Source: Periplaneta americana (lineage: Eukaryota; Arthropoda; Insecta; Blattodea; Blattidae). From it: 64,000 nt of DNA. The notes under the pieces were generated by a model, which saw only the letters and a program-made list of their open reading frames with translations, was not told where the DNA came from and made no database searches. The stretch is from contig NC_091131.1 of NCBI RefSeq assembly GCF_040183065.1, forward strand, positions 13,902,800 through 13,966,799, in the 5' to 3' direction. Both the position numbers and the translations under genes were made by a program. This document shows, piece after piece, positions 4,441 through 48,717 of this stretch; position 1 is the first letter of the stretch; every line of letters starts with the position of its first letter.

Positions 4441-4589
4441 ATTCTACAGCCGAGTGACGTAGTTATTATGATGAGAGATCGCTTAACATACGAGGTGCAA
4501 CTAACTGAAACATAATATGTCACACAAAACAAAATTTTCAGAAAAAGCAAAAGAGCTGTATTTTCTGAACTCTTGTAGTAGGAAACATG

Positions 4590-24659: not shown

Positions 24660-24819
24660 ATGCTGCTTCTGGTCACAAGGATCTGTTTAAAGCTCGTTGT
24701 GGTAGTCGCTTCCGCTGCTGGTGCCCCTTTAGTTCAAACTACGCTCTCCCTCATCACGTCATTCTTACAGCAAAACCACGTGTCTTCGGCCGTTGTTGCG
24801 TCTTGTTGGTCTGCATCTG
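24660..24819 (+). CDS. Ir75: gene B exon 1: signal peptide and CWS motif
   Basis: Starts at ATG 24660 with a hydrophobic leader (MLLLVTRICLKLVVVVASA) and continues to VSSAVVASCWSAS, ending in phase 1 before GTACGT. No in-frame ATG lies just upstream. The SCWS block aligns with SCWSTS at the same place in gene C exon 1. Confidence 0.85.
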
Positions 24820-26708: not shown

Positions 26709-26741
<33 letters not shown>

Positions 26742-29071
26742 ATATTACTACTACTACTACTGCTACTACTACTACTACTACTACTACTAATACTACTACT
26801 ACTAATATGATATACAAAACAGTACTTTATATAAGTTATTTATTTCTGAAGAAAAAAAAGCGCGAGATATAGACAGTCGGATAATCCGCCAATCGGTTAA
26901 TAGGGTGGCGGATAATCGGGGTTCTACTGTAGTCTCCGTTTCCCTGTGAATAATGGTGAAAACCCCAGATCGCTATGATAATTTACAGATGAAAAGTTCA
27001 AACTAACCCAAGCAAAAAAGCTCTACTATCCATTGGTCCGCAAATTAACCGTTGCAGAGATAATGCACATTATCTGTTAAGATTCCTAACTAAGAGCAGA
27101 CATACAGACATCCCTAACTGAATTCTACTTACAGCAGGTGTTCAAAATGCTGTCCATGCATCTGTACACAGCGTTGTGCTCTTCTCTGTAGTGAGCAGCG
27201 AAACCTCTCGGGCAGTCTTTGATCATCCCTTACTTGCTGAAAGGCACATTCAATCATAAACCGCAATTCCTGAAGTATGTTAATCTCACAAGTGTAAACT
27301 AGGAATTTTACACGACCCTAAACAGGAATCTAATCGAATTTAAGTCCGGTGACCTAGGAGGCCACGGCACTGCCCCTCCCTCTGCCTAACACAATATCGC
27401 ACGAAGCGGTTAATTCGCGGACTAATGTTTATCAGAGCTGTTTTGCTTCTTTGAGTTTGTACTTTTCATCTCTAAATTATTGACCATCACTTTTGAAACA
27501 CTCTGTATTACGTCTTTATTTAAGTGAAATCAGCGTCACTTAATTCGCATATGTTTCTTACAAGAAATAACTGATTGATAATAAGGGTGTTCAAAACATA
27601 GAGAATATAAATACGGTGTACTGATAGTTGTTATTGAATTTAATGTCGTTACGCCTTTTGTTCCAGAGAAGGTACGGCTGAACAAACACCTGTCAAGGAG
27701 CAACATCATGTCGTCATTCCAAGACCCTGGCGCTGATGTTAACGTCTCACTCTTGCTGAAGTCTGAATACTTTCATACTGGAGTCGTTATAGACCTTGAG
27801 TGTAAAGGCAGTATTGATTTCATGTCAGCTGTAAGTGTCTACATTTTATTTATTTTCTTAACATATTTCAAATATTGAGAATCGTAATAAGTATGATGAT
27901 AACTATCATCATCATCATCTCCTCCTCCTCCTCCTCCTTACGAAATTTGAACACGTTAGTCTAATTTTGAATTCATTTTAGTATTCAACGTAGTGCAAGA
28001 TTACAGCTCAAGACAGCACAGTTTTAAATAAAATAATCTGTGGTAAGAAGTAGAAATATTCCTACTCTGGATATATTTTATGTTCTTCAAAAAAAATTAA
28101 TTTCCTTTTTATGTTGGGAACATTGCCGTTTTTTGTTATTTTCTTCAATTATTATTCAAAAGACGCGCGTAATATTACATTACGCAACGAGCCTTTAATG
28201 GTAGTAATTAAGACGCGAGGATGTTTATGAAACGAGCGCAACCGAGTTTCATAATTTTCATACGAGCGTCTTAATTACCATTATAGGCAAGTTTCATACG
28301 ACTTTTTATGCTCGACCATATTTCTAACTTGAAATTATTCATAACTATTCATGTTATTGTTATGTGAGTGCAATAGCCTACATCATAAATTGTGAGATGT
28401 GAGCGGACGCGAAAATATTGATTTTTTTTCCGGGAAACGAATGTCGACGACCTTGATATAATCTAGAGAGTAAGATGAACATTAGTCTTGATATAACCTT
28501 GAAATTGAATTCGACATTGAAAAACGAGATGACAAATTGAATTTATTTGAATATTATTTACAATTAACGATAATTATTATAGTAACAGAACATAACCTTC
28601 TGCGACAGTATTGGATTTCCAGCCTCCGTGAAGTTTTCGATACTTGTCTTTCTATTGCATATCCGAGAATAATCGTAAACCTGAACTTTGATGAATAGGT
28701 GTAATTTAATGACATGCATTAAAGGACTGCTACCAGGTGTATAATTACTACATTTCGGCATGGTCGAGCATAAAATAAATAAATTGAATATGCAGGCAAA
28801 TAAGGTGAAGGATTATAACTTTATTATGCAACAGTCACTGGAATTAATATTTATTATTTATTGATTTTGTTTAAAAGCTTTGATTCAGTGACTAGAAAAA
28901 TATCCATAAATTTATTTAATAAATTAAATTACATCCATAAATTTCTTAGACATCACAATAACAAAAACAGACAACAAACCTAAGTTAAAAATATGCAGGA
29001 AACCTACTACTACGGCAAAACACACAAATAACACCTCCAATCACCCCACTCAACACAAACACGCAACATTT

Positions 29072-29104
<33 letters not shown>

Positions 29105-32100
29105 AGCTCTGGCTGCACATGTGCCATGTAATAAAATATCCCGTGCCGCACTTAGACATTTTTGTGTGATTATCATTTCGTCTGTTAATATTACTGTATC
29201 TCCTTTTTATATTGGTTGTATTTTATTTCTATTTCTACTAGTGGCTTGTGCAGCAAATGCTGCTGCAAACTAAGTTCGTTAGATGTTCAAATAAAAATGT
29301 TTCAGATTTATTTTCAATAAAGAATACTTGTCTTTTTGATAGTTATTTGCTTCCATAATAATGAAACATACTCCCTCTGAATGGATTTTTTTATGCCAAA
29401 TACTTTTTCTTGAAACTATCCAACTTCAGTTTTTGAGTTTCAACTCGAAAACGCAAGTATCAATGTCAGGACGATAGCAGTAGCTATTTCAGGTCATTGT
29501 GGATTGTAGGCAACAGTTAAAAAAATGTCAGGTTTGCTAAGCTTTCGAATAATAGCATTTTCGTATAGCTGCTGCATGTAGAACTTGAAATGTAGAGCGT
29601 AAAATCATTTTATCCTACTAAGAGATCTTGCTGAAATGATCTGGAGACTACATTTTCTAGCCCTCTTATTTTATCAGTAAGTAATACCTTTTGATCTTTC
29701 CTTAGGAACTGTAATTTTTGCGCTCTCTCGAGCCAATACTGAAGACAATGACACATATCAATATCTACACTACACCGCCATTAAGTATATGAAAAAGACC
29801 CAATCCCACTGGGTTAATAAGTATAAAAATATTTGATTTTTAATAACAATATTATTATCTTACTTAAGTTTTGTAGTTATATATAGCAGTCACTCAGTAA
29901 ATTATAGAAACGAAGAACTAAATTAAGATATTCTCTACATTTACTTACATAACCTGAAAACGTTTCACTTTCAAGCCATCAATATAGCATCAATATTATG
30001 TACAATTAATGAAGAATAGACGCATCATGATATTAACTACAATAATATTTAATTTCTAATGGTAATAATGTCATTAAACCACCTCAAGTTTCGTAGATTT
30101 GAATATCCAATACACAGCTGTACTCAGAAAATTATACACTGCAGAATCAGTTTTTAATAAAAAATTGAATTGAGCTCTAAATATGTCGGCAATCCTGCAG
30201 GTCATGGCCTTCGTGTAATAGCCTATTGTTTATTGTAGTGTGTGTTTTGTTCTGAAATTCAATGAAGTCGGCCGTGAATCAATAAAATTAGTTCTGAAAA
30301 CTGACAACAGATGGATTTTGGAAAATAGGAAAATTATGTACGAAAATTGACATTTCACTGAAAACTACTATATTTCCGAAAAACTTTGGATGCCAGGCAT
30401 GAAAATGAGGGGTCACTCATTAAAATCCGTTCAGCCGTTTTCCCGTAATGTCCATTACCAGTTCAAATTATATATATAGATAGTTGTAATTATATTCTGT
30501 ACTAGTGGCTTGTGCAGCAAATACTGCAAACTAAGTTCATTAGAAGTTCAAATTAAAATTTTTCAAATTTATTTCCAATGAAGAATACCAGACATTTTGA
30601 AAGATATTTGCTTCCATAATAGTGAAACATGCTCCCTCTGAATGCTTTTTATGCCAAATACTTTTCCTTGAACCTATCCACCTTCAGTTCTTGAGTTTCA
30701 ATGCGAAAACGCAACTAACAATGTTTGAACGATCAGGGAATTTTTCATGTGGGAGTAATGCAGTAGCTATTTCAGGTCATTGCGGATTATAGGTGAGATT
30801 AAGAAAATTTCAGGTTCGATTATACCAAAAGAAATATGAAATTAATTTTGATTTAGTTTTAAGACGCAGCTAAAATAGGAAGCATGACTCATTACTACCT
30901 AGGAAAATTAGAGAATCACACATATAAACATCTACATCACACTGTCATTAAATATATGAAAAAACCTACATCACTTGACTAATAACTATAAAAATATTTC
31001 ATTTTTAATAACAATATTGTTACCTTACGTAAGTCTTATAATTTTCAATAACAATATATATAGCTGTTACTCAGTAAATTATAGAAATAAAGATCTAATT
31101 TAAAATATTCTTTCTCTGCGTCTACTTAGGCCTACATAAAACCTCAAAAGGTTTCACTTTCATATCACCAATATAGCATTAATGTGTGTAATTAGTGGAA
31201 AATAGGTCTACTCACATAATATTGCGTTAACTATAATAATATTTCATTTTAATGGTAATAATCTCATCAAACATTCTTAAGTTTTGTAGTTCTTAATATC
31301 CAATACACAGCTGTACTCGGAAAACTACAGACCAGAGAATCAGACATGTAAATTATTTTCATACACCATCTGAACTCTAAATATGTCAGTAATCCTGCAG
31401 ATCATGGCCTTCGTGTAATATTGTTTATTGTAGTGTGTGTTTTGCTTTATTCTGAAAAGCCATATTTTTCAAAACCTACGACAGATGGATTTTGGAAAAT
31501 AGGAAAATGATGTAGGAAACTTGACATTTCACTGAAAACTAATATTTTTCTGAAAAGCTTTGGGTTCCAAGCTTCAAAATGAAGAGTCATTTATTAAAAT
31601 ACGTTCAGCCGTTTTCACGTAATTTCCATTACCAGTTCAAATTATATATATATATTCTGTATATTTAAATTTAAATAATAAATAAATAAAAATAAATATA
31701 CTTGGACGGTCCCCCAAATAAAGAATTTGCAATATTTTAACATGTTAATGACCAACTCTGCTTATTGTGCGCAGGCTGAAAAGAGTAACCACTTGAAATT
31801 GCTGCATCAGTGGCTGGTGCTAGCGATGACTTACAAGCCAGCTCCACAAGGGGAAGAAGACCAGCTGACCTTGGCCCTAGAGCCACTCACACTGCCCGTG
31901 GACAATCAGCTGATGGTCGCACGTCCAGGATCTCATCCAGAACAAATTCTACTGCAGGAGATGTACAGACTGGCACCTCACTTACCCATCATAACCACAC
32001 CTCTAGTGTCTTGGTCTCCAGGTCAGCTACTGCCAGACAGAGTTTCAAGACAAGACTACCACGGAATTATATTGAATTCTGCCTTAGTGGTGAGTGGTTA

Positions 32101-35100
32101 AAGTTATAGAATAAATTTAGATGTTTAAAGTAAAAAAAAGAAAATTGATTTAAAAATATTTATGGTAGTAAATTGTGAAAAGAAGCAGATAAATAAGTTT
32201 TAAAATCTTAATGGTTATTACGATTGGTTTAAACATGCACTGAAACCAGACGTAAGTGCAAGTTTGAACCAATAAATTATTAAGATTTGCGATAAATTAA
32301 TTAGTTTAGGAAATTGTATATTAATTATGTATAACTATTTTTGTATATAAATATTTTTTTAATTTTTTAAGTTTTGTACGCCATGTATTGTGGGTCACTA
32401 TCACCACGGCATGGCGCGTCCTCAGGTTGCGGATAGAGGAGACGGCCCCCAGATATGGAGGGTAGCTGCGAATATATTGAATAAGCAGTCGTGGACAGCC
32501 GATAAGGGGTGGTCCTCCAGCTTGGGGGTTGGGCGAAGGGCTAACAACCCATCACCGTAAAAAACAGCTTGTTACGAATCCCTACAATAAGCCTCGGAAT
32601 AGGACTGATTCTCTGGCACGACCTTTGAGATGGGCAGGGCATGTAGCACGTATGGGCGAATCCAGAAATGCATACAGAGTGTTAGTTGGGAGACCGGAGG
32701 GAAAAAGACCTTTAGGGAGGCCGAGACGTAGATGGGAGGATAATATTAAAATGGATTTGAGGGAGGTGGGATATGATGATAGAGACTGGATTAATCTTGC
32801 ACAGGATAGGGACCAATGGCGGGCTTATGTGAGGGCGGCAATGAACCTTCGGGTTCCTTAAAATCCATTTGTAAGTAAGTAAGTATTAAGTTTTGTACTT
32901 TTGTGAACTAATATCAATAAATCTATCAATCTATCATAAGTCCGTAAGAAATTCACCACAAATAAACTAAGCAACGGATATACATTTTATTACACAGAAA
33001 TGTAGGTAAACTCTCCAAGGTTTTTCTTTACACATCTCACAAATTCTCGTACGGTAGACATCTAGTCGATAAACCATTTCATCTCACACACGTGTCACTA
33101 TATCACGATCAATCAGTGCCACAGCCGCGGTGATACGGTCGCGAATTTCCTCAAGGTTAGCGAGGAATGGTGATACAGAAACAATGTCCTTCACAAACCT
33201 TCACAAGAAAAAATTGCAAGGTATTAAATCAGGTGACCCTGGTGGCCACCCCATTAAGGAGTTATCTTATTGTCCACAGCGCCCTATCCAACGTAGTGAT
33301 AATTGTGAATTTGAAGTACAAAATTTTGGATCGTTGCATGTGTTTCGTTACAGGCAAGAGACGAACCTCTGGAGAACTTCCGGAATTTATACACCAAGGA
33401 TAAGAACACCGTAGACAAGTGCAGCTACGAGCTTACGTCACTCATCTCAGAGATGCTTAATTTCACGTAAGTCATATAATCATGATCTGTCCTGCTTCTA
33501 GGTTAATCGTATTCTGTTATTTTCTTTTATAGTGCGAATATTTGTCCTTTTGTATTCACTGTGTTGTAAACAGCTCTATTTTTAACGTTGAATAAAACTG
33601 TTATTCGCGAATTAGGGCTACTAGGATGGAAGGGGTAGATTCCCAATTAACACTGATGTAGCGCCTTGTTTGAATTGTTCCTTGTCTCTGTATTACTCTC
33701 TTGCATATTACTGTGTTGTAGGCCTGCTCCTGTTTATTGTCATTCCATTCTCTATGCTACTCTGTTCTAGTATCTTGTAATTAAATTCTTCTATGAGACT
33801 TTACATCTCATTTAAAGAATAAACGCAGCTGCTTGAACCTGGTGTTATGTTTGCCGTAGCATGAACATAACCATTGTAGACGCGTGGGGCTACCCCAAGA
33901 AGGGCACCGACTGCTACGACGGCGTAGTGGGGGCCTTGCAGTGTGGCCACTGCGTCATCAGCGCCTCGGGCATCTTCTACAAAAACAGCCGCTGGGACAG
34001 ACTGGACTACGCCGGGGAGTCTTCCTCCTACAAGTGAGTCGCAACTTTCATAACTTGAAAAGTACTGCCTGATTATTCGAAAAGTCGGAAAATCTGTCAC
34101 GAACACACATGTTATGTTATATTACAATTTGATTATTGTTGTTGCTGTTGTTGTTGTTGTTGTTTACTCAGCTGTCCGAAGACAGGTCTGAACCTCACAA
34201 GTGATACCAATTTGACATCACTCATGAGCAGGCTTCGAGACTTCGGACCCGATAGAGCAGTTCAGTGGGAAATCCGCATAACTGCGTACTGAGTATAGTG
34301 GTAAAGCGTACAGTGGGTGGGGGTACTGTAGAATGAATGCCAACAAATACGCAAAGGAAAACGCTCTGGATTTGAAGGTTCTGGCGAATAATTTGGTTTT
34401 CACACAAATATATTTTCAAATTGTGCCTGAAACTATTACACGGTTAGAAAAGTCAGAGCAAGAGATGCCGAAGCCCGCGAATTAGTTGAGGAAATGACAC
34501 AGAGAATTAATGAGACACCAAGTACACCGGTTACTGAACGTCTAAAACAGAAGTGAAATCAATTTTATGTAAAAATAACGGATATGGAGCATTGTGTAAT
34601 ATAAACAGAAAATTAGTGGACATAGAATCACCCGAGAATAAACGACTGCCTCTTAGAGACTGCAATGATGTTAGGTTTCTTCGTTTTGCTCCTGTGACGT
34701 CATGCGACGTAGAACGCAGCTTTTCACAGTACAAACTGTGTTTGGCAGATGACCGAAAAAGATTTACGTTTGAGACACTGAGAATGTATCTTGTAGTACA
34801 TTGCAATTCGGTACTGTAACTGCACTACCTAATGACGACCAATAGGATAAATGAAGAAATTAAATTGCTACATGCTTATTTCCACCATTAACACTGTGTA
34901 TAATTAAACAGAAATGCTTATAAAAGACAGGAGAATAAATGCTTTTCACATTCTTTGACATTGTCATTGTGTAATGTATATCTACTTTCAGAATGTGCAT
35001 ATGTGTCTGTTTCCCCATACTACCGTACTCTACTCTAAATAGCAACGTTATTACCTCAACACGTCTCTACCTTTCACTACCTGCAGCGAGTCAACAACCT

Positions 35101-36018
35101 ATAGTCCATGCACAGTAAACTTATTGTATCGGGTCCCAAATCTCGAAGCCTGCTCATGAGGTAACTAAAACAGCACATGCTGAGGTAGGGTGGCCAGTTC
35201 CTTTCCCCCTTTCATTGCATACATCGCGGACTAGCTACATATCACACTAATCAGACTTCAGATGCATGCAAGCAATTGTTCTTCCTCTGACACATTTAGT
35301 CAAGTGAGATGTACTGCCTGATAATAGATGTACATATCAGCCAGAACCTATTATTATTATTACTTTCTTACTTACTTACAAATGGCTTTTAAGGAACCCG
35401 AAGGTTCATTGCCGCCCTCATATAAGATTAATCCAGTCTCTATCATCATATCCCACCTCCCTCAAATCCATTTTAATATTATCCTCCCATCTACGTCTCG
35501 GCATCCCTAAAGGTCTTTTTCCCTCCAGTCTCCCAAATAACACTCTATATGCATTTCTGGATTCGCCCATACGTGCTACATGCCCTGCCCATCTCAAACG
35601 TCTGGATTTAATGTTCCTAATTATGTCAGGTGAAGAATACAATGCGTGCAGTTCTGTGTTGTGTAACTTTCTCCATTCTCCTGTAACTTCATCCCGCTTA
35701 GCCCCAAATATTTTCCTAAGCACCTTATTCTCAAACACCCTTAATCTCTGTTCCTCTCTCAAAGTGAGAGTCCAAGTTTCACAACCATACAGAACAACCG
35801 GTAATATAACTGTTTTTATAAATTCTAACTTTCAGATTTTTGGACAGCAGACTAGATGACAAAAGCTTCTCAACCGAATAATAACAGGCATTTCCCATAT
35901 TTATTCTGCGTTTAATTTCCTCCCGAGTATCATTTATATTTGTTACTGTTGCTCCAAGATATTTGAATTTTTCCACCTCTTCGAAGGATAAATCTCCAAT
36001 TTTTGTATTTCCATTTCG

Positions 36019-36087
<69 letters not shown>

Positions 36088-36306: not shown

Positions 36307-36361
<55 letters not shown>

Positions 36362-37533: not shown

Positions 37534-37568
<35 letters not shown>

Positions 37569-40228
37569 TAGTGTATCAATCTTAGCGTCTGTAACAGTTG
37601 TGCAGCATGATTATTCGTTTTATTATATTTTCTGTGACGTTATCTCTGTACTAATATTGTTATTAATCTACTGCTATATCAATAATATTTTGTAAAACAT
37701 TTCTACATTGTCGCAGTATATAGGCGGAACACTATGTATGGACCTATCATATAATATATGTGGTAAATCAAATATTGAATAATTATTAATTAGCAATAAT
37801 AACTGTATATCGAAGTTTTTCATACTATTTTATTTGTAACTTCATGTTCCTGTTTTGGTACGTTCCATTGACTGTTCCATTAAACGTTTGTCATAAACGC
37901 AGAGAATAAAGCCTTATTTTTACCGTGTGAGCAAAACATATGTGTATCTTATCTGTCGCCTTCCATACAAGATAAGACATGTCGGTGAGATGACCTTGTA
38001 TTGTGCTTCTATGTATTACGAGCGTATCACGACCGATCTTATCTCACTCGAGGGTGCGACACTCGACCGAGTTCAATCGAGCGATTTAACTCCAATGCAG
38101 CACTCTGTAAAGCAACAATATTCCTCAAACTATTCACGACTTACAGATCTCCACAAAATGATACTATTCGTGTTTATGTGAACGTATTGTGTATCGTTTG
38201 TAGCGAGCGGGAGCAGAGCGAGGCACGGGTGACATCTGTACTCCTCGCTGAAATCTATTGTTTTGGTACGAACTTTCTACCAATGCTGTGGATGATTCAG
38301 TATGTAGCGACTAAACTGTGCTCTATTCCAGACTTTCCTTCAAGTTCTTGAAGCCGTCGCTGTCAGAGGTCTCCATAATCTACACGCTTCCATTCAGCCG
38401 ATCCGTGTGGATTACGTACATGTCTATGGTGGCCGTTCTGGCAGTGGCGCTGTATGTTACGGAGAAGCTGGAGCGCTACATGAACCCACGCGAAGAGCCG
38501 CCTCTGGTGTTTGGAGACGCCGCTCTCAATTCTTTAGCAATTGTGTGTGCAGAAGGTAAGAGGATGTTGTTGTTGTTTTCTAATGCCAGGCGTTTGACAA
38601 TAAAGTCATTTGACCTCTTGCACTCCATTATTTTTCAAAGATATTATCATGGCCAGCCACTGAAGCACAGATTTTGAGGTGTTCCGAATCCATTTCTTGG
38701 TTTGAGTTGCACAATGGACACTTAGGGGACTGATATATTCCAATTCTATGCAGGTGTTTGGCCAAACAATCATGGCCTGTTGCCAGTCTAAATGCAGCTA
38801 CAGACGATTTTCGTGGTAAATCGGGAATTAACTGTGGATTATGATGCAGAGAGTTCCATTTTTTTCCTTGAGATTGCGTTATCAAATTTTGTTTGTTGTA
38901 GTCTAGGTATGTAGATTTAATCAATATTTTCACAGAGTAATACGTAGATTTAGTAACAGGTCTGTAAGTAGCAGTGCTGCCCTTCTTTGCTAAAGCATCC
39001 GCATTCTCGTTTCCCAGGATTCCACAAGAGGAATGAGGATGTAGTGATGTAGAAGTCATGAACAAAATCAGTTCAGTTGAATTTTAAAACAGAAGACGGC
39101 TTAAATAGCTCTGGGGTAGTTCCCTTCGTACTTCGCTTTATACACCTTGCATATACGAATCTATGATAGGCTAGGTTTGGTTAGTTCAGGCTTTTGTTAT
39201 ACCTTGCATGTACAATATATATATAATTTTCACAATTATGGATTGCATTTATTAATTGGTTTGGAACATGACATTATTTCCTAATTTCAAATAACTTTTT
39301 TCTGTTAACTTTATGAAAAGCCTTTTCAAAATCGATAAAAGCCAAATATGTCTCTTTGTTAAAATCTCTTCGTTTTTCTGTTATCCTTTTTCAAGTTCCC
39401 ATCAGCACATGATTTACCTTTCCGGAATCCATTTTGTTCTTCCATTAATTTTGTGGGACTATTTTACCTCCGGAGAATTTTACACTGAGGGACTCCATGA
39501 ATCAGAAGCAGTGAAAAATATAGTGGGACTGCGTTGGTGTTAATGCAGCGTATGTGGGTACCTCTTTGTTACTTGTTAGCTTAAACAACTAGTTTAAGCC
39601 CCCTCACCACGACAAGGTGAGTACCCACGAGAGGGCTACTAGCAACAGGCATCTATAATGAACACCGATCAAAATACCCCTCATTTCTCGTGAAAAACAA
39701 CAACTGAATAGACTACAGTGGACTATAGTGGACTTTACGTTGTCAGCAAACAGCTGGATACATTAAGAAGATTGATTATTCCATTAATTTTGTTTCATAA
39801 AATATATATAGTTTTTGTTTTAAAAGTTTTGCGTAAATTTCATATCCTGAATTTAGAACACTAATACAGTACCTCTGTAATTTTCACAGTTATTCCTATC
39901 TCCTTTTTTAAAAATTGTTATAACTAGAGCCTTATGCCAAATATCCGGGCGGTTTTCTCCAGCTAAAATTCCGTTATACAATGTTAATAGTCGTGCTTTG
40001 ATTTCACTGCTGGCGTACTTCTAAAGTTTCATATTAATATTGCCACATCCTGGAGCTTTGTTCTTCTTGCATTGCTTTAGAACATCATTTAATTCATCTA
40101 TGGTAAAGTGTTCCTGATGATCATTATTTGAAGTTGGGCAATTAGCCTACCAAGTAATATCTCATTATTCCATAATTGCTAAAAATATGTTATCCATCTA
40201 TTTTTATCAGTTACTTCAATTTTGGTAG

Positions 40229-40264
<36 letters not shown>

Positions 40265-43200
40265 TTATTTTATTTATTTATTTAATTAGAATATTAATGT
40301 GCGAAACAACAGCACAAGGCCAATTACAGTTTAGCACGATACAAACAAAACAACAAATGATGATCAGAATGAATGACAGAAATGGCAGTGAGATGAAATA
40401 CAATCAATATAATAGTCTACATTAATCAATTGACCAAAAGCACAAATAATAATTATTGAAATTAGTTCAGTGAGATAATTAAAATAATGACAATTGAATA
40501 GAATGAATTACAAATGTATTAATGAAATCAAATAAATGAAGACTGGAATAATATAAGTAATATTGTAAAGATATGAATTGGCAAGAATAATAACAATAAT
40601 AATAACCATAATAATAATAACAATAATAATAATAACAATAATAGTAATAATAATAGTAATAATAACAATAGTAATACCAATAATAATAACAATAATAGCA
40701 ATAATAACAACAATAATAATAATAACAATAACAATAATAATAATAACAATAATAACATTAATAATAACTATCATAATAACTATAATAATAACAATAATAA
40801 TAATAATGTCTTAGGATATAAGGCAAGCTGACAGCTGACAAATTTGTGGTTCAGGAACTCCCCGCTCGCCAGACAACATGTCGTCCCGGATCGTGTTCCT
40901 GTTCCTGCTGCTGCTGGCGCTCTTCCTCACGACGTCGTACTCCGCCATCATCGTGTCCCTGCTGCAGACGCCGAGCGATGCCATCAACACTCTCACGGAG
41001 CTCCTGGACAGCCCCTTCAAGCTGAGCATGAGGAATATCAGCTACAACACCAAGTACGTCAATGTAAGTACAGAACAAGCAAAATATCCGCCACTGCTCT
41101 GCAATCACGACTTGTAAAATAGGCTGAAGACCCATTCACAAGAAAACAACATTAACGTGAAGACATAAACGTATGAAATGAAAATACGATTCACCTTACC
41201 ATTCACAATGACAACAGAACGATAACGTCAAAATAACACAATAATAAATTATTGAAGAGTGTGACAAATAAAAATGGATGCTTCAGCAATGAAAGACAAA
41301 GTAGCAGTGCAATTTATGTTCCTGCAAACTAGGCTCATTCACAATGAAAATTAAACTTAACGTAAGCGTTAACTTAAAAATGTAAACGTTACGGTAAAAT
41401 CAAGAACATTCAAGATGGGAACATAAACATAACCTCAAAGATATTTGGTAACCATGGAAACATAACAACGACGTCATTTCCCTATATTCTGTCGTATATT
41501 TCAGTGCACTACAATTGTGTTCTGTTTGCAAATCACGTAAGCATAAGCATGAAAGTTTGGAGTTCGCAAACTTTCATATTAACAGATCGTTAGACAACGG
41601 TAATGTTGTTGTTGTTGTTTTCTATTGCCAGGCATTTGACAATAAAGTCATTTGACCTCTTGCACTCCAATATTTTTCAAAGATATTGTCATGGTTAGCC
41701 ACTGACGCACAGATTTTGAGATGTTCTAAATCCATTTCTTGGTAACGGTAATGTTAATGCCAGTGTTTATGTGAATCATTGTGAATGATCCCATTCGGTA
41801 GCCTGGGCGCAAACTTCTGTGTTTATGTTACGGTTATGTTTAATTTTCATTGTGAATGGGCCTTTTAGTTTGTGCAAGGTGTACTACTTTTGATGCTATA
41901 AATACTACCACAATCTACTATATACAGTCACGAAGCTTGAGTTTTGAGGGTGCTAGAAACAATAGATTGTGACGGTACTATTTTGCATTGCCTGTAATGA
42001 GGCGATATTAGCGATCCTAGTGGTGAGCAACTACTTAATGTTTGCATATTTACTACGTATTGAGCTTCGCGACTGTATATACTAGACTGTGATACTACAG
42101 TGACACTGTTTTTTTTAGCCCCGCAATTTTCATTTTCCAGTCGCCCGCCGTTAGGAGCTTATCTGCGGCCACCCGGTCTGCCGGCACTAAAACATTTAGT
42201 ATAGGAATTTGTACTTACCAGCTCAAAGTAGGTGTTGAAAATGTCCCCCACTAACTGCTACACACTGTTGACATCTTCTTATGAAATTGTTAAATACTTT
42301 AAGAAGTTTTGCTTCACTCATTGACTCGATTTCAGTTCTTATATTGTCTTTAAGCTAATTTGTTATGTATTTATTCACACTGCAAATGGGTAAATATCCG
42401 GTGGCAGTGGTAACTAATTACACTCAATAATTACAATAATAATAAAATACAGTCATAATCTACACTAGTAATAAATCTGTAGCCGAAATTTTTCAGGTAA
42501 TTTTCGATTTTCCAAAAATAATTGGTCCTAACATATATAATTAACAGCTATGAAACCGAAAATCGCTTTTCTTTATTTTTGTTTGTCTGTCTGTCTGTCT
42601 GTCTGTTACCTTTTCACGCGATAATGGCTAAACCGATTTATATGAAAATTGGAATATAAATTAAGTTTGTTGTAACTTAGAATTTAGGCTATATGGCATT
42701 CAAAATATTTTATTTAAAAGTGGGGTTATAAGGGGGCTTGAATTAAATAAATCTAAATATCTCCCTTATTATTAATTTTCATAAAAAATATTACATGACA
42801 AAATAATTTCCGATAAGTTTTATTCTATGCAAAATTTTGATAGAACTGATATTTAATGAGATAAATGAGTTTTAAAATTACAATAACAACGCAATCTAAG
42901 GCGGTGTAATGACTTCCTCTATAACAGGCCTTGGACAACAACAATCGAAAGCTATGAATCATAGCCTACAGAGAATGTTTCTGTGTTTGTATGGAGTAAT
43001 ATCGGAAGCTAAATTAACCCATTTGTATAATTAATTATTAATTCACCATTGGAAAGTGTAGTTTCTCTAGATGGACGTAATGCTATAATGTTATTACAGT
43101 AACTTCTGAGTGAATCGAGGACAGGTAAGATTGAAATAGCTTCTTATGCACAGAAAACTTGATAGGCTATTCTGTACATTCGTTTCCTGTATTTCCTAAA

Positions 43201-46200
43201 ATAATTTTTATGACCAAATGAGTGGTCTCTGAATCAAAATGATCGCATTTTAATTATTCAAATATAATTTAAATTAAGTAACATAATAAACTATTTATCC
43301 TTATATCAAACACGAATGTTCCCTGGTTCAAATGTCCTATTTTAATTATGGAATTACTTTATATTTATTTCTAACGGGTGCAGCGGAGCGCACGGGTAGG
43401 CTAGTATTAATAATAAAGTAATAATAGCAATATATAATAATATTAACAAGCAGCATCCTAAATTAAATGAATCACTTAATATAACTTAATTAATTAAAGT
43501 AAATCTAATTTATATCTTAACCCTAAGTTAGAACTTAAAACCACGAGTATATATGATATATGAACAAACTTGCATAAGTATCTTTCAGCACTACACTCAT
43601 TTCGCTATCAATTCACTCACTGCACTGGAACTAAGACACATTTAACTGACACTATCCTGATTTCACTAACACTTCAAAAACATTTCTTTGTTCAAATACT
43701 TTGCACTACCACTATAATCTATAGAACTTCACTGACACAAACTCACTTCACTGTCACAACACATTTCACAGACACAACACACTTCTTCACTGATACAACA
43801 TTTTAAATAACATAACATTAATTACATCCTTATTATTCTGTAGAATTGTACTTACTGTATTAACCTCAAATCGCTAGCCTAGACCCCATTACAAGCAATT
43901 TAGGACGATCACTATAACTCACACCCGTTCACTATAAATTTATTTTTTCTGCCACTACAACTCTCAGAATCTATACTAATACTAATTCTGTAGCCAAAAT
44001 TTTTCCGGTAATTTTCGATTTTCCAAAAATAATTTGTGTTAACATGTATAATTAACCAACCTGAAACCGAAAATCGTTTTTTTTTTTCTTTTTGAAATTT
44101 TTGTTTGTATGTCTGTCTGTCTGTTTGTTACCTTTTCACGCGATAATGGCTGACCCGATGTATATGAAAATTGGAATATAAATTAAGTTCGTTGTAACTT
44201 AGATTTTAGGCTATATGCCATTCAAAATACTTTATTTAAACGGGGGTTATAAGGGGGCTGAATTAAATAAATCGAAATATCTCCCTTATTATTAATTTTC
44301 ATAAAAAATGTTACATAACAAAAGTTTCTTTAAAAATAATTTCCGATAAGTTTTATTCTATACAAAATTTTGATAGGACTGATATTTAATGAGATAAATG
44401 AGTTTTAAAATTACAATAACAATGCCATCTAAGGCGCTGTACTGAAATAAAAACAAATGACTTCGTCTATAAGGGGCCTTGGACAACAACAATCGAAAGC
44501 TATTAAACATAACCTACAGAGAAATTTTCTGTGTTTGTATGAAGTAATATCGGAAGCTAATTAATTGTTTAATTATTATTTAACCATTGGAAAGTGTAGT
44601 TTCTCTAGATGGATATTTTCTACAATGTTATTACAGTAACTTCTGAAACATATAGCAAGTAATATAAAGTATACACATTAAAACTAAATGATATGTCAAT
44701 CTTCATTAAACTATGGTTGCATGTAATAACAATTAAGAAACATGTTAAAGGAATTGTCATTGCACCAAATGATTGCTCTCTGGACCAAAATGATCGCATT
44801 TTAATTATTTAAATACAATTTAAATTAAGTAACATATTAAACGATTTATCCTTCTATCAAACACGAATGTTCCCTGGATCAAATGTGCTATTTTAATTAT
44901 GTAATTACTTTATATTTATTTCTAACGGGTGCAGCGGAGCGCACGGGTAGGCTAGTTTACTTATAAGCTCACTGCACTTTCACTACAACACACTGCACAC
45001 CCAATATAAATCATTGGAGATTCACATGCGGGTATAAAATTTCGTCGTTGTAGGACTCAACAGATCCTGAAATAAAGAGGCTGTTCTACCAGAAACTGTA
45101 CACACGACCTCCACATGAAGCGTTCACCTCAGAACGAACAGGCATTGAGAGTATCCGCAAGGGACTGTACGCCTTCCACACTGCACGGGAGGGCTACAGA
45201 TACATGAGCGAGACCTACGAGGAGTATGAGAAATGCAAACTGAAGGAAATCCAGATAATTCCCTCCAGCATCCTCGGCTTCCCTGTCAAGAAGAACAGCA
45301 TGTACAAAGAACACATCACGCTGAAGTGAGTAACAGAACAGAATTAGTCAATAGGTCACGAATATCCTTCACATTAACTTCAGTGTTTATTATTGTAATT
45401 AAACCTCTGTATTGTTTTTCTGCATGTGAGATGTTTAAAGTCCTTGCGAAAATCGAAATATTATCACTATAAAAACATCTTATCTATTGGTATCGAACCC
45501 AACAGTTTTTTCTGTTTTCCTCCCTTCTCTGATAAAGAAGCAGAGACGTAGTTTCGAAATGTTGGATCTTTCTGCATTTATGCCGTGCTGCATAAACCCA
45601 AAAGTATTGCTTCCAATCTGCTTGCCACTCGTATTTTGACTTTGATGTTTTATTCAAAATAATAATTATTTAGTTTGGCCTTTCTGTCTTGTTGATATTA
45701 AATATATCTAATAATTCGGAAATATTCGTAGATAAAACTATCAAGGTTTCTCCAAGACTTGAAGAATCGTATTCTGTTCATTCCCTATGTCTGGGTGATC
45801 CCAACAGAATATAGGATCCTTGCGGTCTTTCTATGAAATTGTTATTCTGATAAAGTGATAACCCAAAATGCTTGTACAGTAGTTCCAGCACGTTACTGTT
45901 ATTATCTCTCGTAATGTGGTTACAACACGAAGTAAAAAAAAGTTTGATCTCGAGCGTATTTCTATCTGAGCACAACGGAAAAATAAATAATACAAATTCT
46001 GAAGGTAACAGCAACATGACACAGTACAATTTCTGGAGGTAAACAGTAACATGACACAGTATAATTTCTGAGGATAAACAGTAACATGACACAGTACAAT
46101 TTCTGGAGGTAAACAGTAACATGACACAGTATAATTTCTGAGGGTCAAGAGTAACATGACACAGTACAATTTCTGGAGGTAAACAGTAACATGACACAGT

Positions 46201-48717
46201 ATAATTTCTGAGGGTCAAGAGTAACATGACACGGTATAATTTCTGAAGATAAACAGTAACATGACACAGTACAATTTCTGGAGGTAAACAGTAACATGAC
46301 ACAGTATAATTTCTGAAGATAAACAGTAACATGACACAGTATAATTTCTGAGGGTCAAGAGTAACATGACACAGTACAATTTCTGGAGGTAAACAGTAAC
46401 ATGACACAGTACAATTTCTGGAGGTAAACAGTAACATGACACAGTATAATTTCTGAAGATAAACAGTAACATGACACAGTATAATTTCTGAGGGTCAAGA
46501 GTAACATGACACAGTATAATTTCTGAAGATAAAGAGTGACATTACACGGTATAATTTCTGAAGGTAAACAGTAACATGACACAGTACAATTTCTGGAGGT
46601 AAACAGTAACATGACACAGTATAATTTCTGAAGATAAACAGTAACATGACACAGTATAATTTCTGAGGGTCAAGAGTAACATGACACATTATAATTTCTG
46701 AAGATAAAGAGTGACATTACACGGTATAATTTCTGAAGATAAATACCAACATGACACAGTACAAATTCTGAAAGTAAACATTTACATGACACAGTACAAA
46801 TACTGGGTGTTCAGTTCAAAATGTGTCTTGGCTCGCTGCATGCCGTCATGTGGCTAGCTGATGAGCATAGAGAATTCAATCTTCCTACACTTCCGCGGCT
46901 CAGGTGTATAACCTAAGAGGCAGAGAAGTTGGCTAGCAAGTACGGCGTTCATTCTGAAGAGTACGTGCCGATACGTACGGTAACGCCGGTAGTGGCAGGA
47001 ATGTGAACTGTTTGGAAATACGTACTGTCGAGATATGGGGAGAGGGTTAAGACGATTACTTACGTATTTGTTGACATTAACTTCGACGGTCAACATGGAC
47101 ACGGAGCATTTGATTTGTGTTGTGGAATGTTACCATACGCAACCGATGATAACAAATACCCTGCGTACGACTTGCCGGCGCAAAACACAGTTCGAAAGAG
47201 GTTATGGTAGCACACAGACCGTACGGACCGCCATCTGTTGCTACGACGTTCAAGTTATACCGTACACATTCTCAAGTTCAGATTGAAGAACGCCTTGATT
47301 AATAGGCAACTTCTCTGACACAAAAGCTGAAACTCGCTTCAAATTGCTGATTCATCAACAGTGACGTCATGACACACTTTGAAATGAACACCCAGTACTG
47401 AAGGTAAATAGCGACATGACATTGTAGAATTTCTGAAGGTAGATAGCAACATGATAAAGTACAATTTCTGAAGGTAAACATCAAAATGACACGGTATAAA
47501 TTCATTGTTCAGATTTCTGAGACGTAGTATGTCACCACTGGCTTTATCACTCTACTATTGTTAATTTTGATCTCCTGGCCATCATTTGTGATTTAAGGCA
47601 GTTTCTATTACCTGCAGCTATTCTATACCTTACTTCCGCATTCGTGTCATTATCGTCTGTGACCACTGATCCCAAATATTTGAACTGTTAACGTCTTTTA
47701 TAACATATTCCATGTATCCCGACCTTATTTACATTCCCATTTCTTTTTTCCTGGTTGAATACATAATTGTATTATAACACATTTTACTCTTAATTGACCT
47801 TTAATAATATCTCTGTTGCAAATGTTTCCAGTCTTTGTTCTTCCACATCTTATCATCTCCCTGATGGGGAGTTAATATCATCTGTTTAAGTCATATGTGT
47901 GTAAATATTCTATTTAATAATGTTCTTCCAAAATTACTTTTCAACTTTTCTAATGCTACACTAATAATATTGACAAGCTAAACTAATGCGCTCGATATTG
48001 TTATCGCGTGTTATTCGTGGTTAGCGTTGAGATTTGTGTTTTCTTACACTTTGTTTCACGAAATTGATTAAACCAATGATGAATAAAATGGCTGCATTAT
48101 GAGGTTAACTTGCCCAGAATACGTTCGTTGAATGTTACGTTGAACAAACAAAATTGACTTTACAGCCTACCTCAAAATGCTATTTGCTCTCTATCGCACG
48201 GCCCCCATCGCACTGAATTAAAGATTACTAGGATCACAATGGTATGATTGTTTATGAAGATCACCAACTCACTCACTGTTCATATGGAAACAAAAAGCAC
48301 ACCCTTCCTCTACACTTTGACACACAAATCACTTTAACATTTTTTTAATAATTTTGGCGTTATGCATTTTTCGATAAGCCTAATTTATAGACACAGGCTT
48401 CGATAGAATTTTGTTACCTTAATCAAGAAGTAACATACAATCTTTGAGTAATGTGGGTAATTCTTTCCTTTAGAGCTCGTGTTCTGAAAGAGACGGGCAT
48501 GACAGATCGAGCGTTCAAAAGGTGGTTTCCTCAGAAGCCTATTTGTGGCGCCAACAGCCAAGGGTTCGTAAGCGTCCGCATCAAAGATTTCTACCCTACC
48601 CTGGTGGTGCTGTCCATCGGTCTCCTTGGCTCCATTGTGCTCATCTTCATAGAGTTAATATACCACAAGGCGAAGTATGGTACTTACTGGCCTGCAGTAA
48701 ATCCGACAGACAAGTAA
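24660..48717 (+). CDS. Ir75: ionotropic receptor 75-type chemoreceptor, gene B, nine exons
   Basis: The exons are 24660-24819, 27667-27830, 31775-32089, 33354-33466, 33860-34033, 38332-38555, 40855-41063, 45054-45325 and 48474-48717. All introns are GT-AG with phases 1, 0, 0, 2, 2, 1, 0 and 2. The joined frame has 624 residues without a stop, the usual IR75 length. Order: signal peptide (about 1-22), a CWS motif near 49-51, VVIDLEC near 92-98, S1 lobe, M1 (335-352), pore region, M3 with SYSA (411-414), S2 lobe, M4 (585-606), short tail. Arg295 (NSRWDRLDY) aligns with the glutamate-receptor arginine that binds the ligand carboxylate. Members of this clade are antennal, non-glutamate, ligand-gated cation channels, many tuned to acids and amines, acting with a co-receptor such as Ir8a; the ligand here is unknown. 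Ir31a or Ir64a are the main alternatives. Confidence 0.93.
25330..25520 (-). pseudogene. Tigger/CENP-B-type HTH N-terminus
   Basis: The minus strand reads MSSTGVNRKRVVLSIEKKIE then IIEWFEKEK and, after a frameshift, HLASEYEIGVTT.RDLIKK. This is the psq-type helix-turn-helix start of Tigger/pogo transposases (RKRVVLSIE.K.EII). Stops and a frameshift make it dead. Confidence 0.7.
25648..25806. mobile_element. MITE family M1, copy 1
   Basis: Ends are CAGTCACGAAGCTTGAG and (right, reversed) CAGTCGCGAAGCTCAAT, flanked by TATA-rich sequence. Two more copies are at 41935-42075 and 53499-53648. Confidence 0.8.
25888..26750 (+). pseudogene. Jockey/CR1-type LINE 3' end
   Basis: An open frame gives SLVQTLVFPYFDYADILLTD, LQRAHNLCVRFVSNVRKYDH and LPRLWNSLPASIRDSRNKIQ, the conserved C-terminal region of Jockey/CR1-type RTs, ending at a natural stop at 26390-26392. 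A 3' UTR with GGCCTTATCTCTGCCAGG precedes an AAAT-repeat tail (26709-26745). The catalytic domain is absent (5' truncation). It is inserted in the pogo relic. Confidence 0.85.
26748..26806. repeat. (ACT)n microsatellite
   Basis: TACTACTACT run with a few interruptions, next to the LINE tail. Confidence 0.85.
27120..27420 (-). pseudogene. mariner-like transposase relic
   Basis: The plus-strand text CAGCAGGTGTTCAAAATGCT and AAGTCCGGTGACCTAGGAGG is the reverse of the GGHFEHLL C-terminus and the PPRSPDL block of the mariner-like family seen at 6020, 33030 and 57480. Strongly decayed; no frame remains. Confidence 0.55.
27667..27830 (+). CDS. Ir75: gene B exon 2
   Basis: Acceptor TTCCAG at 27661-27666 and donor GTAAGT at 27831. 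Encodes EKVRLNKHLSRSNIM through EYFHTGVVIDLECKGSIDF to MSA. It is 164 nt, the same length and phases as gene C exon 2, and the VVIDLEC block aligns with VAVIVDLQC there. Confidence 0.9.
28178..28774. mobile_element. hairpin-bearing non-autonomous DNA element, copy 2
   Basis: Same architecture as 12114-12805: a foldback of about 100 bases at the left (CCTTTAATGGTAGTAATTAA / TTAATTACCATTATAGG) and the inner inverted repeat TTTATGCTCGACCAT / ATGGTCGAGCATAAA. It starts TTACGCAACGAGCC and ends GTCGAGCATAA. It lies in intron 2 of gene B. Confidence 0.75.
29071..29102. repeat. (GA)n microsatellite
   Basis: Uninterrupted GA run of about 32 bases. Confidence 0.9.
29238..30480 (-). mobile_element. non-autonomous Helitron, family H1, copy 2
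   Basis: On the minus strand it starts TCTATATATATAATTTG after an A and ends GCCACTAG before a T. The 3' hairpin is GCAGCATTTGCTGC. Homologous to 1429-2381 throughout. No coding sequence. Confidence 0.85.
30502..31654 (-). mobile_element. non-autonomous Helitron, family H1, copy 3
   Basis: It has the same 3' end (GCCACTAG|T on the minus strand) and body as the copy 21 bases away at 29238-30480, in the same orientation. The 5' end lies in a TA run, so its exact base is uncertain. Confidence 0.8.
31775..32089 (+). CDS. Ir75: gene B exon 3: N-terminal lobe
   Basis: Acceptor GCAG at 31771-31774, donor GTGAGT at 32090, phase 0 to 0, 105 codons. AEKSNHLKLLHQWLVL corresponds to the helix-strand pair followed by YHWLLL in other IR75 proteins. 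DYHGIILNSALVV at the end is the conserved GV.L.AG.VV strand. The ATG at 31727 in the same frame is intronic. Confidence 0.9.
32380..32886 (+). mobile_element. internally deleted RTE-type LINE, 5' UTR joined to 3' end
   Basis: TAAGTTTTGTAC (12 bp) flanks it at 32368-32379 and 32887-32898. The left half (CACCACGGCATGGCGCGTCC, GGTTGGGCGAAGGGCTAACA) looks like a LINE 5' region. From about 32626 it jumps to LRWAGHVARMGESRNAYR and ends in (GTAA)n. Perfect-looking ends with the middle missing suggest a mobilised deletion derivative, in intron 3 of gene B. Confidence 0.75.
33030..33330 (-). pseudogene. mariner-like transposase C-terminal relic
   Basis: Minus-strand frames read GWPPGSPDLIPCNFFL then RFVKDIVSVSPFLANLEEIR and MVYRLDVYR, the last catalytic-Asp block and C-terminal helix of the mariner-like family. 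A stop lies after FFL. It ends just before exon 4 of gene B. Confidence 0.75.
33354..33466 (+). CDS. Ir75: gene B exon 4
   Basis: Acceptor CAG at 33351-33353, donor GTAAGT at 33467. Encodes ARDEPLENFRNLYTKDKNTV and CSYELTSLISEMLNF, the linker leading into the S1 lobe. Ends in phase 2. Confidence 0.9.
33860..34033 (+). CDS. Ir75: gene B exon 5: S1 ligand-binding lobe
   Basis: Acceptor GTAG at 33856-33859, donor GTGAGT at 34034. Encodes MNITIVDAWGYPKKGTDCYD and CGHCVISASGIFYKNSRWDR, equivalent to the GMFG..Q...D....G.....ER.....Y region of S1. Arg295 is the candidate ligand-binding arginine. Confidence 0.9.
34229..35152 (+). mobile_element. hAT element with exact ends
   Basis: TSD CTCATGAG at 34221-34228 and 35153-35160. 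Ends CAGGCTTCGAGACTTCGGAC and (right, reversed) CAGGCTTCGAGATTTGGGAC. It contains a transposase C-terminus on the plus strand. Confidence 0.92.
34440..34819 (+). pseudogene. hAT transposase C-terminal fragment
   Basis: After a frame break near 34552 the frame gives FAPVTSCDVERSFSQYKLCL, then DRKRFTFETLRMYLVVHCNS and a stop. This is the hAT dimerisation region (P.TS.DVERSFS.YK..L...R..F...L..YL). The N-terminal DNA-binding and catalytic parts are missing, so it is not active. Confidence 0.85.
35372..36018 (-). pseudogene. RTE-type LINE 3' end
   Basis: Minus strand: [78 protein letters not shown] and DDRDWINLI. It ends in TTACTTACTTAC (the reversed GTAA tail). One frameshift lies near 35780-35810. 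The last 16 codons are partly deleted relative to other copies. Confidence 0.85.
36019..36088. repeat. (ATT)n microsatellite
   Basis: Uninterrupted ATT run; poly-Ile and poly-Leu open frames across it are not genes. Confidence 0.95.
36089..36361 (+). mobile_element. intact SINE-like repeat with (TTA)n tail
   Basis: The uninterrupted form of the repeat that is split at 34228/35153. It ends in a TTA run (36308-36361). Confidence 0.7.
36440..36680 (+). mobile_element. tRNA-derived SINE
   Basis: Head GTGTTCAGCGCGTCTGGCCG, B box GGTTCGATTCCCGG, then CTCAACCCAACATGAGCAAA and CATTTCACCGGCATTATCAC. Same family as 23925-24172. Confidence 0.8.
36681..37122. other. intron 5 sequence, nothing recognised
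   Basis: AT-rich, no coding frame or terminal repeat that I can assign. Confidence 0.4.
37131..38107. mobile_element. hAT element family P1, copy without LINE
   Basis: Ends as in 6725-9971. Flanks TAAACTAA (37123-37130) and TAAAGCAA (38108-38115) match in six of eight positions, consistent with an aged TSD. A pure TAA tract at 37536-37568 marks the place where the other copy received its LINE. Confidence 0.85.
38332..38555 (+). CDS. Ir75: gene B exon 6: end of S1, M1 and pore start
   Basis: Acceptor CCAG at 38328-38331, donor GTAAGA at 38556. Encodes SIIYTLPFSRSVW, M1 (ITYMSMVAVLAVALYVTEKL) and NSLAIVCAEG of the pore segment. The YTLPFS..VW block is characteristic of IR75-type receptors. 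Confidence 0.92.
38563..39065 (-). pseudogene. LINE C-terminus with RNase H
   Basis: Minus strand: SSCGILGNENADALAKKGS is the last RNase HI block (GI.GNE.AD..AK), and AAFRLATGHDCLAKHLHRIG then CPLCNSNQEMDSEHLKICAS is the downstream CC..HC knuckle-like region of Jockey/I-type elements. The 3' tail begins eight bases after the donor site of gene B exon 6. A second 3' end of the same family is at 41604-41745. Confidence 0.8.
39290..40150 (-). pseudogene. LINE reverse-transcriptase debris
   Basis: Minus strand at 39875-40140 gives HFTIDELNDVLKQCKKNKAP and FKKGDRNNCENYRG, the first RT blocks. 39300-39350 gives IYLAFIDFEKAF-like text with the first catalytic Asp block. About 380 bases between them (39480-39860) do not belong to it. 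Decayed beyond reading. Confidence 0.65.
40230..40560 (-). mobile_element. LINE 3' UTR end with TAA tract
   Basis: TAA run (40230-40263), then a match to 7175-7480 (GCGAAACAACAGCACAAGGC). Only the 3' end of the LINE inserted here. Confidence 0.75.
40585..40806. repeat. imperfect (AAT)/(AAC) trinucleotide array
   Basis: About 220 bases of AATAATAAC-type repeats with regular AAC and AGT variants. Six-frame poly-Ile and poly-Leu frames here are artefacts. It ends 48 bases before exon 7 of gene B. Confidence 0.95.
40855..41063 (+). CDS. Ir75: gene B exon 7: pore and M3
   Basis: Acceptor TCAG at 40851-40854, donor GTAAGT at 41064. Encodes GTPRSPDNMSSRIVF, the M3 helix (LFLLLLALFLTTSYSAIIVS) and LLQTPSDAINTLTELLDS. 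SYSA replaces the SYTA of glutamate receptors, as usual in IRs. The GC-rich codon use contrasts with the flanking AT repeats. Confidence 0.93.
41125..41875. mobile_element. inverted-repeat element with nested LINE tail
   Basis: GACCCATTCACAAGAAAA at the left is matched by the reverse of TTTTCATTGTGAATGGGCC at the right. CATTCACAATGAAAATTAAA recurs internally near 41337. A LINE 3' end (41604-41745) is inserted, flanked by ACGGTAATGTT on both sides. Confidence 0.65.
41604..41745 (-). mobile_element. LINE 3' end, same family as 38563-39065
   Basis: GGCATTTGACAATAAAGTCA and CCATTTCTTGG are shared with the 38563 copy. A short target duplication (about 11-12 bp, AACGGTAATGTT) can be read on both sides. 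Confidence 0.75.
41935..42075. mobile_element. MITE family M1, copy 2
   Basis: CAGTCACGAAGCTTGAG ... GAGCTTCGCGACTG, as at 25648-25806. Confidence 0.8.
42200..42360 (-). pseudogene. mariner-like transposase C-terminal scrap
   Basis: Minus strand: NFIRRCQQCV and GGHFQHL, the C-terminal signature of the mariner-like family (F..RC..C....GGHFEHLL). Confidence 0.5.
42459..43404 (+). mobile_element. non-autonomous Helitron, family H2, copy 1
   Basis: Starts A|TCTACACTAG, has the family landmark TTACCTTTTCACGCGATAAT, and ends GCGCACGGGTAGGCTAG|T. The GTGCAGCGGAGCGCAC hairpin lies just before CTAG. No Rep/helicase. Confidence 0.88.
43405..43969. other. spacer between two Helitrons
   Basis: Contains a CACTT/CACTGACAC-rich stretch (43590-43800) reminiscent of a degenerate tandem repeat; no gene. 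Confidence 0.4.
43970..44955 (+). mobile_element. non-autonomous Helitron, family H2, copy 2
   Basis: Same ends and orientation as copy 1 (A|TCTATACTAA ... GGTAGGCTAG|T), 566 bases downstream. Sequence is collinear with small indels. Confidence 0.88.
45054..45325 (+). CDS. Ir75: gene B exon 8: S2 ligand-binding lobe
   Basis: Acceptor GTAG at 45050-45053, donor GTGAGT at 45326. Encodes DSTDPEIKRLFYQKLY, TGIESIRKGLYAFHTAREGY, YEEYEKCKLKEIQIIPSSIL and FPVKKNSMYKEHITL. The G....R.G.YAFH pattern is the conserved S2 segment of IR75 receptors. Phase 0 in, phase 2 out. Confidence 0.93.
45466..45745. repeat. paralogous intron block, copy of 1128-1408
   Basis: Starts 140 bases after exon 8. It proves that the region around 1128 belongs to the last intron of gene A. 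It carries the same decayed hammerhead-like motif (CTGATAAAGAAGC ... TTTCGAAAT). Confidence 0.75.
45989..46802. repeat. 35-bp minisatellite, about 23 units
   Basis: Units read CAGTAACATGACACAGTATA then ATTTCTGAAGATAAA, with two main variants (GGAGGTAAA and AGGGTCAAG). A few more units follow at 47396-47500 beyond a MITE. Because 35 is not a multiple of 3, each reverse-strand frame cycles through all three phases without stops and gives spurious MLLFTSRNCTVSCYC proteins. There are no spacers, so it is not a CRISPR array. Confidence 0.95.
46803..47395. mobile_element. Tc1/mariner-type MITE inside the minisatellite
   Basis: TA duplicated (46801-46802; 47396-47397). Ends CTGGGTGTTCAGTTCAAAAT and (right, reversed) CTGGGTGTTCATTTCAAAGT. 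No transposase recognised. Confidence 0.85.
47540..47700 (-). pseudogene. LINE RT C-terminal debris
   Basis: Minus strand: FKYLGSVVTDDNDTNAEVRY-like frame, the conserved FKYLGS block after the RT palm. Short and frame-broken. Confidence 0.6.
48474..48717 (+). CDS. Ir75: gene B exon 9: end of S2, M4, tail
   Basis: Acceptor TTTAG at 48469-48473; stop TAA at 48715-48717. Encodes RVLKETGMTDRAFKRWF, PQKPICGANSQGFVSV, M4 (PTLVVLSIGLLGSIVLIFIE) and the tail YHKAKYGTYWPAVNPTDK. P..C.......F.SV...D.YP is the usual entry to M4 in this clade. The near identity to gene A's last exon indicates recent duplication or gene conversion. Confidence 0.95.

Follow-up and report, generated by a model that had tools for sequence, protein, structure and literature searches.

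A nine-exon IR75-type receptor gene, very probably intact, within a same-strand tandem array of the American cockroach

We suggest with high confidence that copy C, a gene on the + strand of Periplaneta americana, is intact, encodes a tuning subunit of the IR75 subfamily and lies in a large tandem array of copies with the same orientation. It occupies positions 24660-48717 of the window (the whole stretch of 64,000 nucleotides analysed here, C15:13902800-13966799), that is, C15:13927459-13951516. The receptor family is a known one that has expanded, and copy C is an ordinary member of it, in good condition. What is new is its first exon, missing from the public model, and the full models for two neighbour copies without a same-contig protein found. 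The American cockroach is a classic animal of olfaction; 640 candidate IRs were given for it in the 2018 genome paper (PMC5861062), and where these IRs occur and what they do is left for later studies in the available part of a 2022 paper (PMC9065313). A correct IR75 set makes the role of IRs in acid-tuned, ORco-negative neurons testable.

Copy C has nine exons, the longest of 315 nt, separated by eight introns of 393-4298 nt, all eight of them GT-AG. The exon phases (1,0,0,2,2,1,0,2) form an unbroken chain, and the joined frame of 1875 nt including the stop encodes 624 amino acids, with a single stop at its end. Apart from the intron lengths, all these values, the upper limit on exon length included, reproduce those of an earlier sequence-only reading of this DNA. 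The exons are as follows.

24660..24819, + strand: exon 1, ATG, hydrophobic N-terminus, residues 1-53, CWS motif; ends in phase 1; also in copies A, B and D, missing from the ANN_07420 model
27667..27830, + strand: exon 2, N-terminal domain; ends in phase 0; reading frame, splice sites and homology
31775..32089, + strand: exon 3, N-terminal domain; ends in phase 0; Pfam IR75A_N over residues 28-191
33354..33466, + strand: exon 4, start of S1; ends in phase 2; homology with ANN_07420 and with copies A and B
33860..34033, + strand: exon 5, S1 ligand-binding lobe with R295; ends in phase 2
38332..38555, + strand: exon 6, YTLPFSRSVW, M1 and start of the pore; ends in phase 1; Lig_chan
40855..41063, + strand: exon 7, pore and M3 with SYSA; ends in phase 0
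45054..45325, + strand: exon 8, S2 ligand-binding lobe with T456 and A497; ends in phase 2
48474..48717, + strand: exon 9, end of S2, M4 and stop; reading frame and homology

Seven exons (1, 2 and 5-9) could be placed from their reading frames together with the splice sites. For exons 3 and 4 we filtered by length, phase and donor, and two candidate pairs passed. Since this filter took its total length and phases from the earlier reading, it does not by itself prove the pair independently, and the choice between the two was made by homology. Exon 4 is placed at 33354-33466 because 37/37 of its residues match ANN_07420 and because it has matches in copies A and B. A second candidate for exon 4, at 32568-32680, also passed the filter, but we rejected it for its overlap with a repeat peptide fused into the protein models P0002 and P0022. 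Random open frames are ruled out by homology across all nine exons. The gene model is not a product of chance, since exons 2-9 match ANN_07420 at 562/571 residues and the 8/8 GT-AG junctions recur in each adjacent paralogue.

The comparisons support copy C, at the level of the subfamily, as an IR75-type insect ionotropic receptor. The Pfam family IR75A_N (PF24576) matches residues 28-191 with 62 bits against a cut-off of 27 (7.3e-17) and Lig_chan matches residues 332-511 with 42.2 bits against 30.8 (9.2e-11); the match to Lig_chan-Glu_bd stays below its cut-off. The motifs named in the sequence-only reading are found at residues 49-51 (CWS), 326-335 (YTLPFSRSVW) and 411-414 (SYSA). Hydrophobic windows of 19 residues start at 333-334 (M1), 390-403 (M3) and 582-592 (M4). 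Together with the Lig_chan match and the fold match of ANN_07420 described below, they bear out the claimed order S1, M1, pore, M3, S2, M4. A hydrophobicity peak at the N-terminus suggests a putative signal peptide.

A protein search with the joined frame, a check proposed in the earlier reading, returned 24 proteins at E 1e-3 with a query that was off by one residue, all of them iGluR-like insect proteins, and those named as IRs are IR75s or plain ‘Ionotropic receptor’. The nearest named relatives are ‘ionotropic receptor 75a-like’ and Blattella germanica Ir75b, c and d, which share the subfamily and domains of copy C at 41-44% identity but keep D at the S2 acid position, where copy C has A. 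Diploptera punctata L9F63_014643 (P0003) is the nearest non-Periplaneta protein in the searches (53-54% identical) and is also without the S2 acid (Gly); its model starts with a piece, absent from copy C, that resembles the end of another IR gene. The profile search for distant insect relatives brought blattodean, phasmid and orthopteran proteins and two horseshoe crab NMDA receptors; none of the protein searches gave a Drosophila IR. The CREL loop, which marks co-receptors and which tuning IRs do not have, is about 30-35 amino acids long and lies close to where S2 begins (PMC6472016); no such insert is seen in copy C in alignment with GluA2 or with the other IR75s.

At E 1e-3 the copy C protein matches 176 distinct sequences of solved structures, and the best 60 of the 176 are receptors of the AMPA, delta and NMDA types. 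For ANN_07420 a structure was predicted with modest confidence (mean pLDDT 73.6 and pTM 0.59, from a 14-row alignment). Its fold is that of ionotropic glutamate receptors, with 9jrd_A as the best match (2.2e-23, TM-score by query 0.39), and the fits are partial, with TM-scores by query of 0.33-0.43 among the best 50 matches listed.

The tree contains 31 rows, namely the window protein, 28 IR-like proteins and two NMDA receptors, with P0024 and the fragments P0032-P0036 excluded. The rows came from the search with the copy C protein, and the outside group consists of the two NMDA receptors alone, with no other IR lineages. Copy C joins ANN_07420 (100/98), then ANN_07418 (100/100), then Diploptera P0003 (100/99); this group stands beside P0004 and P0012 (100/98), inside the IR75s of Blattella, Periplaneta and termites. 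Copy C, ANN_07420 and ANN_07418 together sit on a branch of 0.47. Two proteins of the tree carry misleading database names, P0027 (‘glutamate [NMDA] receptor subunit 1-like’) and P0021 (‘glutamate receptor 4-like’).

The best protein match, ANN_07420 (P0001), is a GenBank ‘hypothetical protein’ of Periplaneta americana with no functional name. By all signs it represents the same locus in another assembly, exons 2-9 being open in both. Unlike copy C, it has a different first exon, with about 30 N-terminal residues unrelated to exon 1. The paper search for ‘ANN_07420’ found no mention. No protein from the contig of the window matched copy C above 59%, among proteins of 0.55-1.75 times the query length. 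Models shorter than 173 aa, models of exons 1-5 only (173-343 aa) and models longer than 1092 aa could escape this search, in which one query was exons 6-9 alone and the full-length queries scored only about 8000 candidates sharing most words. The expectation that automated gene finders miss the gene is thus right in part: the GenBank model most likely has a wrong exon 1 and the same contig gives no match above 59%, but exons 2-9 are present in ANN_07420.

Copy C is not single. The whole-genome search with its protein gave at least 71 exon matches, and between 13.29 and 14.00 Mb of C15 there are at least 14 matches each of the exon-7 and exon-8 types, every one on the + strand. These matches point to an array of at least 14 IR75 copies in one direction over about 0.7 Mb. 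More exon matches lie near C15 10.76 Mb and C11 7.97 Mb. Apart from these, a second IR75A_N cluster was seen at C11:176816233-177265172, with eight matches on the - strand that include the seven strongest in the genome. Whole frames were checked for copies A, B and C. The neighbours of copy C, and their parts inside the window, are as follows.

C15:13817754-13855831, + strand: copy A, nine exons, 8/8 introns GT-AG
C15:13865751-13907256, + strand: copy B, nine exons, 8/8 introns GT-AG
C15:13964699-13997777, + strand: copy D, the annotated model P0004
Window 4215..4457 (C15:13907014-13907256), + strand: exon 9 homologue of copy B, the next IR75 copy upstream; one base shorter, last residues different from those of A and C
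Window 61900..62038, + strand: exon 1 of copy D, the next IR75 gene downstream; ends in phase 1
Window 63384..63547, + strand: exon 2 of copy D, from homology

All nine exons of copy C, with their splice sites, recur in copies A and B, and the exon lengths are equal in the three copies, except that exon 9 of B is one base shorter, so that copy B ends differently from copy C. The DNA around this exon is 88.6% identical to that around exon 9 of copy C over 1154 columns, exon included. Copy A differs from copy C mostly in exons 5 and 8. P0004 matches the genome exactly, exon by exon, except for residues 200-203, where exon 4 is shortened. From the exon-4 homologue (about C15:13975584-13975697) this model takes only IEDT and then jumps to 13980868; the rest of the homologue is open in the genome.

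The start of ANN_07420 is most likely wrong, and exon 1 of the present model right, because four neighbouring copies, A, B, C and D, share exon 1 with its phase-1 donor. The annotated downstream gene, copy D, has a phase-1 border between its first two exons as well (62038/63384), and exon 1 of copy C aligns with Diploptera P0003, with 17/34 residues identical. That the true first exon is the one of ANN_07420 and exon 1 an artefact is suggested by the unlike residues with which that model opens, but they have no window match at E 1e-3, and with the shared exon and the Diploptera alignment this makes an artefact hardly credible. We also consider it improbable that copy C belongs elsewhere in the wider IR75/64a/31a clade, closer to Ir64a or Ir31a than to Ir75a-c and with another ligand class. 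Such a place would be compatible with a tree that held no Drosophila sequence, with the branch of 0.47 and with an S2 acid missing, as in P0003; the IR75A_N match and the named relatives, Blattella Ir75b, c and d, speak for the IR75 assignment instead.

The copy C gene is probably complete and working. In Blattella 393 of 897 IR genes are listed as pseudogenes (PMC6175461), and in neighbouring copy B a change of one base alters the C-terminal end, so copy C might be imagined as a recently dead or dying tandem copy, unexpressed, with a frame still open through its youth. However, all but two of the 26 Blattella Ir75 genes are intact (PMC6175461), 8/8 splice sites are kept in each of the three copies, and exons 2-9 are open in two assemblies. 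Further, dN/dS between the copies, taken over codons up to residue 611 (about 1,833 sites, three copies), is 0.24 (C-B), 0.38 (C-A) and 0.31 (A-B), and a dying copy appears quite unlikely to us. In exons 6, 7 and 9 dN/dS is 0.05-0.23 in the C-A and C-B pairs; high values of single exons, 1.56 for exon 4 in C-A (seven changes) and 1.02 for exon 7 in A-B, stand on few changes. Exchange between the copies would weaken dN/dS as a test. In an antennal and mouthpart transcriptome of P. americana, six PameIRs are assigned to the IR75 and IR64a groups, and there is an IR8-type transcript (PMC4899716).

For the three ligand-binding residues of iGluRs (R, T and D/E) we used what we take to be their GluA2 numbering. 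The equivalence of R and T to GluA2 was taken from the structure-search alignment, and the acid position was set by the ungapped preceding stretch (YAY-LLE vs YAF-HTA), departing there from the gapped alignment printed in that search. The S2 stretch of copy C is, by our own count, about 4 residues longer than that of GluA2. In an alignment of 30 rows (the window protein and 29 database proteins, without the two NMDA receptors and the fragments P0032-P0036), the S1 arginine position has R in 26 of the 27 rows having a residue, copy C included (R295), and the S2 threonine position has T in 18/29, again with copy C (T456). At the S2 acid position 19/29 rows have D or E, copy C (A497), ANN_07420 and ANN_07418 have A, P0003 has G, four rows have L, one has F and one has P. 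Hence copy C keeps R295 and T456 but departs from iGluRs with A497 in place of D/E, and its clade is not alone in missing the S2 acid.

In Drosophila, for which the comparison with Ir75a/b/c, Ir84a, Ir64a and Ir31a was made from papers only, the S1 arginine is conserved in acid-sensing IRs (PMC7882480), as it is in copy C, and its mutation in IR84a abolishes the responses (PMC7882480; PMC8575457). The D/E residue contacts the amino group of glutamate (PMC7882480). All three residues are kept in Drosophila only by IR8a, IR75a and IR75c, according to the available part of the same source (PMC7882480); compared by description, copy C keeps R and T only, unlike IR75a and IR75c. The tuning hotspot of Drosophila Ir75a/b corresponds to GluA2 Y732 (PMC8575457).

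By analogy with the family, we suggest that the copy C protein resides in the membrane of antennal sensory neurons and pairs with the IR8a co-receptor, with at least two IR8a subunits in each four-part channel. A volatile carboxylic acid would bind in the S1/S2 cleft via R295, and this binding would open the cation channel. With A497 instead of Asp/Glu, binding in the pocket should not depend on an alpha-amino group, which would make simple fatty acids likelier ligands than amino acids. We thus infer, from sequence, a carboxylic acid without a required amino group as the ligand of copy C. The neurons of Drosophila IR75d answer pyrrolidine and depend on IR25a (PMC7882480), therefore the ‘IR75’ label alone is no proof of an acid ligand. 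ORco-negative neurons of P. americana are tuned to hexanoic and heptanoic acid (PMC9065313); they would fit this reading of the ligand, without any link to the gene.

The divergence between the copies is uneven. In copy A, compared with B and C, the S1 exon 5 and the S2 exon 8 are far more divergent than the other exons, at synonymous and other sites alike. In these two exons dS is 0.26 vs 0.04-0.13 elsewhere for C-A and 0.41 vs 0.02-0.16 for A-B, so that synonymous divergence from the neighbours is about 3-4 times that of the rest. When the synonymous differences of exons 5 and 8 were set against those of the other exons, Fisher tests gave p values of 5e-4 (C-A), 4e-7 (A-B) and 0.03 (C-B), which are optimistic, the two exons having been chosen after the protein differences of ANN_07418 were seen; given that 36 pairs of exons are possible, the A-B value holds up, the C-A value barely does and the C-B value fails. 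The intron of copy A downstream of exon 5 shows a divergence of 0.28 from C and 0.22 from B. Other exon flanks show 0.00-0.17, many of them on short stretches, and those of exon 8, with 0.11-0.17, are not clearly raised. When the comparison goes further back, to P0003, exons 5 and 8 are somewhat less divergent than the other exons (62/148 vs 178/341).

Positive selection as the sole cause of this pattern was rejected, as dS is raised there too, and since dS rises with dN the pieces would be of different age. This points to one of two histories: either gene conversion homogenised the remaining exons, or exons 5 and 8 of copy A came from another lineage. ANN_07418 (P0002) would fit an exchange, since it agrees with copy A at every residue of exons 5 and 8 (57/57 and 89/89) and its exon 3 is closer to copy B (98/104) than to A (93/104); a chimeric model or assembly would do equally well, and this model carries a repeat-derived insert and is without exon 9. 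With three copies from one assembly, and with local mutation bias possible, we treat the pattern as a lead and not as proof. For certain chemosensory groups of Drosophila, gene conversion has been reported (PMC4122928); the available part of that paper contains nothing about ligand-binding exons. Tentatively, and with more doubt than belief, we propose that copies A, B and C are mosaics in which conversion evens the N-terminal and channel exons and selection guards older differences in exons 5 and 8, within a clade that lost the amino-binding acid and gained a new ligand range. If true, the receptors of the array would have one channel chassis in common and differ in the ligand pocket only. 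The uneven divergence is itself a natural experiment, on a small scale, in the retention and loss of differences within receptor arrays.

Last, the earlier reading described introns holding several kilobases of transposons. This is borne out only in part. The repeat peptides fused into P0002 and P0022 have matches in frames of introns 3 and 5, but Pfam named no family in the frames examined from introns 1, 3 and 5, and intron 6 gave only a zf-RVT match below the cut-off. Three public Periplaneta IR75 models (P0002, P0014 and P0022) are fused with repeat-derived peptides, and the label of P0014 names a reverse-transcriptase domain. Intron 8 contains a 35-bp minisatellite of about 23 copies at window 45997-46796, with a smaller block at 47398-47491. 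Outside the gene, a weak Phage_integrase match below the cut-off, possibly of a tyrosine-recombinase transposon, lies at window 639-1124 on the - strand. Reverse transcriptase fragments are found upstream of copy C at window 7685-8781, also on the - strand, where RVT_1 exceeds its cut-off in two adjacent frames.
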